Below, piece by piece: positions 19,130-57,002 of a DNA stretch of 64,000 nucleotides. The notes below the pieces were generated by a model, which worked only from the letters and a program-made list of their open reading frames with translations, was not told the DNA's origin and made no database searches. Each line of letters starts with the position of its first letter. The first letter of the stretch is position 1. The stretch is from Actibacterium sp. XHP0104 (GTDB taxonomy: Bacteria; Pseudomonadota; Alphaproteobacteria; Rhodobacterales; Rhodobacteraceae): contig NZ_JAOWLE010000002.1 in the NCBI RefSeq assembly GCF_025751515.1, forward strand, positions 124,001 to 188,000. The letters run 5' to 3'. The position numbers and the translations under genes were made by a program.

Positions 19130-19204
19130 TGGAGCGGGCGATGAGATTCGAACTCACGACCCTAACCTTGGCAAGGTTATGCTCTACCCCTGAGCTACGC
19201 CCGC
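19130..19204 (-). tRNA. tRNA-Gly(GCC), copy 2 of a tandem pair
   Basis: A 75-base tRNA. The acceptor GCGGGCG pairs with CGCCCGC, the anticodon arm is TAACC-TTGCCAA-GGTTA with anticodon GCC, the T-arm GTGAG-TTCGAAT-CTCAT is intact, and CCA is encoded (19130-19132). The sequence is identical to the copy at 19352-19426. It has its own promoter. Confidence 0.97.
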
Positions 19205-19221
19205 GTCCGTGGGTGAGCGGT

Positions 19222-19250
19222 GATTTAGCGCCCCGCGCCGGGGGGTGCAA
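19222..19250 (-). promoter_or_regulatory. Housekeeping promoter of tRNA-Gly copy 2
   Basis: On the minus strand a -35 TTGCAC (19245-19250) and a -10 TAAATC (19222-19227) are separated by exactly 17 bases, preceded by the extended element CCTC before TTGC. The same arrangement stands before the other tRNA genes in this window. Transcription would start about 10 bases before the tRNA. Confidence 0.7.
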
Positions 19251-19300
19251 GAGGGGGTACGCGAAAAATTTCCGGGGGCGGATCTGCGAGGCGAAAACGA

Positions 19301-19327
19301 AAAAACGCGGGCCAGGCCCGCGTTTTT
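19301..19327 (-). terminator. Perfect palindromic terminator between the two tRNA-Gly genes
   Basis: A 27-base perfect palindrome: AAAAACGCGGGCC, a single A, then GGCCCGCGTTTTT. With A and T runs at both ends it would terminate transcription in either direction; for the minus strand it ends the transcript of tRNA-Gly copy 1. Confidence 0.88.
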
Positions 19328-19351
19328 CGAAAGCTCCCGTGAGGGAGAAAT

Positions 19352-19426
19352 TGGAGCGGGCGATGAGATTCGAACTCACGACCCTAACCTTGGCAAGGTT
19401 ATGCTCTACCCCTGAGCTACGCCCGC
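19352..19426 (-). tRNA. tRNA-Gly(GCC), copy 1 of a tandem pair
   Basis: Identical in all 75 bases to the copy at 19130-19204, including encoded CCA (19352-19354). Anticodon GCC in loop TTGCCAA. The upstream flank (GGGTGAGCGGTGATTTAGCG on plus) is also shared, so the duplicated unit included the promoter -10 region. Confidence 0.97.
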
Positions 19427-29418: not shown

Positions 29419-29493
29419 TGGCAGCCCGTAGGGGAATCGAACCCCTCTTTCCAGGTTGAAAACCTGGCGTCCTAACCGATAGACGAACGGGCC
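29419..29493 (-). tRNA. tRNA-Glu(TTC), second of a tandem pair
   Basis: A 75-base tRNA with acceptor GGCCCGT/ACGGGCT, anticodon arm CCAGG-TTTTCAA-CCTGG (anticodon TTC), T-arm GGGGTTCGATTCCCC and encoded GCCA 3' end. Identical to the copy at 29525-29599. The 31-base gap holds no promoter, so both are co-transcribed. Confidence 0.97.
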
Positions 29494-29524
29494 ACATCCT
29501 ATGCCCGGAAAACCTTGTGAAAGG

Positions 29525-29599
29525 TGGCAGCCCGTAGGGGAATCGAACCCCTCTTTCCAGGTTGAAAACCTGGCGTCCTAACCGATAGACGAACGGGCC
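29525..29599 (-). tRNA. tRNA-Glu(TTC), first of a tandem pair
   Basis: Identical 75-base copy, anticodon TTC, encoded CCA at 29525-29527. It is nearest to the promoter at 29619-29647. Confidence 0.97.
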
Positions 29600-55682: not shown

Positions 55683-55994
55683 ATGCCTCCTCTCGTTCGT
55701 CTTTACATCCGCCAGGTTCTGATCGGCTTTGGCCTGTCGGCTATTTTCGTGGCCGGTCTGTTCTGGTTCAACGTGGGCAACCTGTGGCACTTGGTCAGCA
55801 CCTCGGATATGGGCATCGTGGCAGCGGTGATGCTGTTCATGTTCAACGGCATCGTGTTTTCGGGCGTGCAGTTCGGCATCGCGATCATGCGCCTTGCCGA
55901 TCATGACGACGACCGCAGTGGTGGCAAACGCCAACCGCAACCGGTACTGAACCCCGCCATGTTGCCCGTCCGGGTCGAGAACGACCGCCGCTAG
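55683..55994 (+). CDS. Small two-helix membrane protein of unknown function
   Basis: A 103-residue protein. Two hydrophobic helices (QVLIGFGLSAIFVAGLFWF and MGIVAAVMLFMFNGIVFSGVQFGIAIM) precede a charged tail with His/Asp (LADHDDDRSGGK). Start is ATG at 55683, 98 bases after nusB. I recognise it as a type often seen next to nusB in this group, without known role. Confidence 0.72.
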   Translation: MPPLVRLYIRQVLIGFGLSAIFVAGLFWFNVGNLWHLVSTSDMGIVAAVMLFMFNGIVFSGVQFGIAIMRLADHDDDRSGGKRQPQPVLNPAMLPVRVENDRR

Positions 55995-56076
55995 GGCAGG
56001 GCCCACCCCCGACTCATGACAAATTCAGGCCGTGCCCATCAGGCGCGGCCGCGCGCATGTCTTGCCGGAGAAACGT

Positions 56077-56241
56077 GTGGCGGGAACCGCAGCAGCCGTA
56101 GGGGCAACGAATTCCCGAGGACCTGTATATACAGGTGGGCGCCAGGTAACCGGACCAGGATCCGGACAGAGCCAGCTCCCTCGGAATTGCTTAAGGCCAC
56201 CGGAATTTGACCCCGGCACGAGAAGAGCAGAAACCCGCCAC
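56077..56241 (-). ncRNA. Candidate structured RNA, about 165 nt, possibly 6S RNA
   Basis: No protein is supported here, but the region folds into a rod. On the minus strand the RNA would begin GTGGCGGG (56241-56234) and close perfectly with CCCGCCAC at 56084-56077. Inside, GCC(C)C-type pairs (56211-56217 with 56095-56104) and a ten-base stem with one bulge (56179-56188 with 56110-56120) continue the rod, with large internal bubbles and an apical hairpin ACCTGTATATACAGGT (56121-56136). A 17-spaced promoter lies directly upstream. 6S RNA is the best guess from size, rod form and bubbles; no sequence match could be tested. A weak T-rich tail follows. Confidence 0.5.
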
Positions 56242-56247
56242 CGCCGA

Positions 56248-56276
56248 TACCTAGGATGACCGCCCTGCCGCGACAA
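56248..56276 (-). promoter_or_regulatory. Promoter of the candidate structured RNA
   Basis: Minus strand -35 TTGTCG (56271-56276), exactly 17 bases, -10 TAGGTA (56248-56253). Transcription would start about seven bases further, at the first base of the RNA closing stem. Confidence 0.55.
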
Positions 56277-56313: not shown

Positions 56314-56328
56314 GTTCACTAATTGTTC
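56314..56328. promoter_or_regulatory. LexA (SOS) box upstream of mmcB
   Basis: GTTC-ACTAATT-GTTC matches the alphaproteobacterial LexA consensus GTTC-N7-GTTC exactly and ends five bases before the mmcB start. Confidence 0.82.
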
Positions 56329-56333
56329 ACGAT

Positions 56334-56795
56334 ATGCAAATGACCCAAACCCTGCAACCCGGCCAGATCCTGGCCCGCGGCGTCTGCCGTCACCTGCGCG
56401 GCCATGATTTCGTGACCGTCGAGGAACTGGTGCCCGTGCGCGGGTTGCGGGTCGATGTCATGGCGCTGGGCCCGAAGTCCGAGATCTGGGTGATCGAGTG
56501 CAAATCCTCGCGCGCCGACTACATGGCCGACGGCAAATGGCAGGGCTATCTCGAGTGGTGCGACCGGTTCTTTTGGGCGGTCGATGCCGAATTTCCGACC
56601 GAGCTTTTGCCCGATCAGACCGGGCTGATCCTGGCCGATGGCTATGATGCCGAGATCATCCGAATGGCGCCCGAAGCCCGGCTGGCCCCGGCGCGGCGCA
56701 AGGCGGTGATGCAGAAATTTGCCCGCCACGCCGCATTGCGCCTGCAATCGCTGCGTGATCCGGGCCCGGCTCAGCTGCTAATCCGCGGGATCTGA
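56334..56795 (+). CDS. mmcB: MmcB-family DNA repair putative endonuclease, SOS regulated
   Basis: A 153-residue protein of the MmcB family with a PD-(D/E)xK nuclease core: RVDVMALGPKSEIWVIECKSSRADY contains the catalytic Asp and the ExK pair. Caulobacter MmcB acts in DNA damage tolerance. Starts are ATG 56334 or 56340; the upstream ATG at 56295 would put the LexA box inside the gene, so it is rejected. No ribosome site is visible, so a near-leaderless message is possible. Ends one base before the convergent DUF6324 gene. Confidence 0.87.
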   Translation: MQMTQTLQPGQILARGVCRHLRGHDFVTVEELVPVRGLRVDVMALGPKSEIWVIECKSSRADYMADGKWQGYLEWCDRFFWAVDAEFPTELLPDQTGLILADGYDAEIIRMAPEARLAPARRKAVMQKFARHAALRLQSLRDPGPAQLLIRGI

Positions 56796-57002
56796 TTACT
56801 TTTTCTTGCCCTTACCAGGGGTCATCGCCCGTGCGCTAGCAGCTGCGGCACGGATTTCCTCGGCGATCTCTTCGGCCTCTTCGGGGTCGAAATCCAGCGG
56901 CAGTTCCAGCCCCTCGGCCTCGATATAGATCCGCACCATGCCCAGCGTGGTGGGGCCGATCTGAAGATTGGCGGCGATGTCGCTTTCCTTGTCGATGCTC
57001 AT
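56796..57002 (-). CDS. DUF6324-like small protein
   Basis: A 68-residue acidic protein with a Lys-rich tail (GKGKKK). The part LQIGPTTLGMVRIYIEAEGLELPLDFDPEEAEEIAEEIRAAA looks like a small beta-alpha fold conserved in Rhodobacteraceae beside mmcB. Function unknown. ATG at 57002 with an AGGAGG-like site. Confidence 0.75.
   Translation of the reverse strand: MSIDKESDIAANLQIGPTTLGMVRIYIEAEGLELPLDFDPEEAEEIAEEIRAAAASARAMTPGKGKKK

Follow-up and report, generated by a model that had tools for sequence, protein, structure and literature searches.

The minus strand just upstream of the DNA repair gene mmcB in Actibacterium sp. XHP0104 contains a segment resembling a gene for a structured RNA, raising the question of which RNA, if any, it encodes. 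The window analyzed here is the whole 64,000-nucleotide stretch of contig NZ_JAOWLE010000002.1 that holds this locus. The segment and its predicted structural elements are as follows:

56076–56242, minus strand: predicted 6S RNA (SsrS) gene of ~165 nt; RF00013 match at 56236–56080, match of the family model R1 (described below) at 56242–56075
56234–56241, minus strand: 5′ half of the closing stem, perfect complement of 56077–56084; helix 1, covarying
56077–56084, minus strand: 3′ half of the closing stem, perfect complement of 56234–56241; helix 1, covarying
56181–56196, minus strand: 5′ side of the central bulge, CCUUAAGCAAUUCCGA, placed by the RF00013 alignment; TGGCC-TTAA near-invariant in relatives
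56121–56136, minus strand: hairpin facing the central bulge, formed by the palindrome ACCTGTATATACAGGT; helix 7
56150–56165, minus strand: apical hairpin CCGGAT/GTCCGG; helix 6

A permissive Rfam scan of 501 bases returned the 6S/SsrS family (RF00013) on the minus strand at 56236–56080, covering the whole model (1–187 of 187) with 45.1 bits and E = 6.1e-8; the sole other family match in these 501 bases is a chance one (E 5.6). The leading candidate of the original prediction, 6S RNA, is thus matched end to end and proves right. The score lies 1.3 bits below the Rfam gathering score of 46.4, which is why the default Rfam scan of the 64-kb window returned tRNAs only and missed the segment, and why such a 6S gene is easily overlooked in annotation. 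This cut-off is a curation threshold and no biological feature, and orthologues at the same locus exceed 46.4 bits. Elsewhere in the 2.69-Mb genome RF00013 has no match, and the segment is single copy.

Several other classes were considered and rejected: a repeat element, given the one genomic copy; tmRNA, as ARAGORN finds none in the window; and SRP RNA and RNase P RNA, both absent from the matches of the default window scan and the permissive segment scan. The tRNA genes of the window include tandem pairs, Gly(gcc) ×2 and Glu(ttc) ×2, at 19130–19426 and 29419–29599, all on the minus strand.

Searching 198 genomes of Rhodobacteraceae, one per genus, with RF00013 gave a match in 176, nearly always one per genome. 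The gathering score was reached in 45 of these 176, and the remaining 131 fall below it, as the window does. When named mmcB loci were scanned with Rfam, RF00013 appeared at the same place in five of six. We also built a covariance model, R1, from an alignment of 31 relatives that has the window among its members; R1 scores the window, itself part of the model, at 179.7 bits (56242–56075, minus strand), and an R1 search of the genome yielded no second full match. Among the 22 genomes lacking an RF00013 match R1 recovers 12, with E-values of 1e-17 to 1e-34. The 10 genomes still without a 6S match include draft or incomplete assemblies, plus a few nearly complete ones.

A score just below the curated cut-off would also be compatible with another rod-shaped regulatory RNA, 6S-like in fold only and acting on a different target. 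We regard this as highly improbable: the whole model is matched, including the conserved bulge of the 6S family and its flanks, the genome contains no other 6S gene, and relatives carrying the RNA at the same locus pass the cut-off.

The proposed 6S structure agrees in most parts with the fold originally drawn for the segment. The 8-bp closing stem, GTGGCGGG (56077–56084) with CCCGCCAC (56234–56241), consists of perfect reverse complements, and the internal stems and rod-shaped fold of the minus-strand segment are real. A palindrome had been placed at the apex; the 16-base palindrome ACCTGTATATACAGGT does exist but is not apical; it forms the hairpin that faces the 5′ side of the central bulge. 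Canonical 6S RNA possesses a hairpin at the same place (PMC8414754). In the alignment of relatives, 98.7% of the cells of this helix 7 are paired, with compensatory changes in one pair, and helix 6 shows compensatory changes in five of its six pairs.

The fold energy of the segment is unremarkable on either strand (z = −1.56 minus, −1.62 plus); these values are not significant, so the case for a structured RNA rests on comparison with relatives. Compensatory changes, whose absence from the stems the original prediction had named as grounds for its own refutation, were found in 13 of the 38 consensus pairs of the 31-sequence alignment and support a rod made up of a closing stem, a central bulge and an apical stem. 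None of 500 shuffles reaches as high, and 52 cells are changed on both sides (shuffle mean 10.7), a control that may be inflated by the relatedness of the sequences. Paired cells amount to 97.6%, falling to at most 57% when partners are slid by 1 to 3 columns; this comparison is biased in favor of the structure, which was derived from the same alignment. Because both controls lean in the structure's favor, the independent Rfam model is the main support. A coding segment was likewise considered, with mechanical open reading frames on both strands, and rejected: the structure covaries, and the alignment contains indels whose lengths are not divisible by three.

Upstream of the RNA lie two putative promoter elements:

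56271–56276, minus strand: −35 element TTGTCG, called from sequence; TTG and the 17-nt spacing conserved in 29 of 31 relatives
56248–56253, minus strand: −10 element TAGGTA, separated by 17 nt from the −35 element; TA conserved at this place in 29 of 31 relatives

The originally described minus-strand promoter, TTGTCG-N17-TAGGTA, is present, and its predicted start, about 7 nt past the −10, falls on 56241, exactly where the closing stem begins. The 5′ end of the RNA is likely at 56241 and its 3′ end near 56077; strand, promoter and approximate ends had all been called correctly. A generic sigma-70 consensus scan misses this promoter. The pattern TTG-N17-TA stands upstream of 29 of the 31 6S copies, against a mean of 1.4 in shuffled sequence, and because of this conservation together with the covariation we consider the segment to be more than chance. 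No convincing terminator was found for the gene; the one weak site, at 56038–56026, comes in a number similar to that in shuffles.

The position of the segment relative to mmcB invites a different reading. The neighboring features are:

56340–56795, plus strand: mmcB, encoding a DNA repair protein MmcB-like (PF06319, E 9e-47); divergent neighbor of the 6S gene, conserved in relatives
56314–56328, plus strand: candidate GTTCN7GTTC site of the alphaproteobacterial LexA type, GTTCACTAATTGTTC, upstream of mmcB; pattern match

Lying directly upstream of mmcB, containing a 16-base palindrome and folding about equally well on both strands, the segment could be a plus-strand structured leader or a regulatory DNA element of mmcB, for instance a palindromic repressor site. 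The chance of this appears close to negligible, since both Rfam and R1 place their matches firmly on the minus strand (R1 gives 179.7 bits there and 12.7 bits on the plus strand), the element retains a minus-strand promoter of its own, and more than 1 kb separates it from mmcB in some relatives.

Based on the match in sequence and structure, the covariation, the promoter, the single copy and the conserved place, we conclude with a probability of about 97% that the segment is the single ssrS (6S RNA) gene of this Rhodobacteraceae-type alphaproteobacterium, predicted to be read from its own minus-strand housekeeping promoter and divergent from mmcB.

We infer transcription, polymerase binding and product-RNA synthesis from the 6S family, in which the RNA acts as a mimic of an open promoter, binds to the housekeeping polymerase and is freed by synthesis of a product RNA from the central bulge (PMC8414754, PMC9130861). 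The RNA of the window is predicted to fold into a long rod whose central bulge would imitate an open promoter, and by analogy would bind the housekeeping RNA polymerase holoenzyme. As growth slows, bound 6S RNA would keep polymerase off promoters, and its release would come with the synthesis of a short product RNA by the polymerase, the bulge serving as template. Product RNAs of Gram-negatives carry GG at positions 4/5 (PMC8414754), a rule by which the start of the product RNA may be placed near 56192–56194 on the plus strand. The TGGCC-TTAA edge of the bulge is conserved in the alignment of relatives.

The RNA matches the RF00013 model over its full length and resembles that family in having a closing stem, a central bulge faced by a hairpin and an apical stem, as well as in its predicted size, its single copy and its putative own promoter; it differs in the score lying 1.3 bits under the gathering cut-off. 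The original prediction had called it undescribed, which is wrong given this full-length match and given that 6S RNA is known in Rhodobacteraceae, that of Rhodobacter sphaeroides being already characterized according to PMC8414754 (citing Elkina et al. 2017, RNA Biol. 14:1627). That species belongs to the same bacterial family as the window. Cereibacter johrii, of the genus into which R. sphaeroides has since been moved, carries a 6S RNA (L119) that scores 145 bits with R1 and, unlike the gene of the window, is found on the opposite flank of mmcB, pointing in the same direction as mmcB. A literature search for 6S RNA in roseobacters found nothing specific. The Ms1 RNA of actinobacteria is similarly a rod with a central bubble that binds RNA polymerase, but it is ~300 nt long, has extra end hairpins, binds the core polymerase and belongs to another phylum (PMC9130861).

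The RNA of the window is an ordinary 6S orthologue of an already known kind. 6S RNA belongs to the housekeeping RNAs that one expects to find in almost all bacteria, and the biological import of this copy is small. Its use lies in annotation: of the 176 family genomes with a recognizable 6S RNA, only 45 clear the curated Rfam cut-off, and a family-specific model recovers more.

The neighborhood itself is well conserved. Among 80 named mmcB loci of Rhodobacteraceae (nearly all named loci being Rhodobacteraceae or Paracoccaceae by title), 79 have the 6S RNA within the flanks that were covered, 77 of them on the strand opposite mmcB. It shares the mmcB strand in C. johrii (L119, 5184–5350) and Jhaorihella thermophila (L116, 2733–2898), an order that is a local rearrangement.

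The GTTCN7GTTC pattern has two matches in the window where 1.3 are expected, and most relatives also have the motif upstream of their mmcB match, no more than 150 bases away. Such a recurrent LexA-type site fits SOS control of mmcB. One could speculate that the conserved divergent pairing of 6S RNA with a LexA-site-bearing mmcB is functional, linking DNA damage and 6S RNA output in Rhodobacteraceae; we consider this very improbable.

On the other flank of the 6S gene, a protein of 103 aa that matches no Pfam family (55683–55994, plus strand) is present in about half of the examined relatives. Following mmcB, a DUF6324 protein (56796–57002, minus strand) is kept in that place in many relatives.
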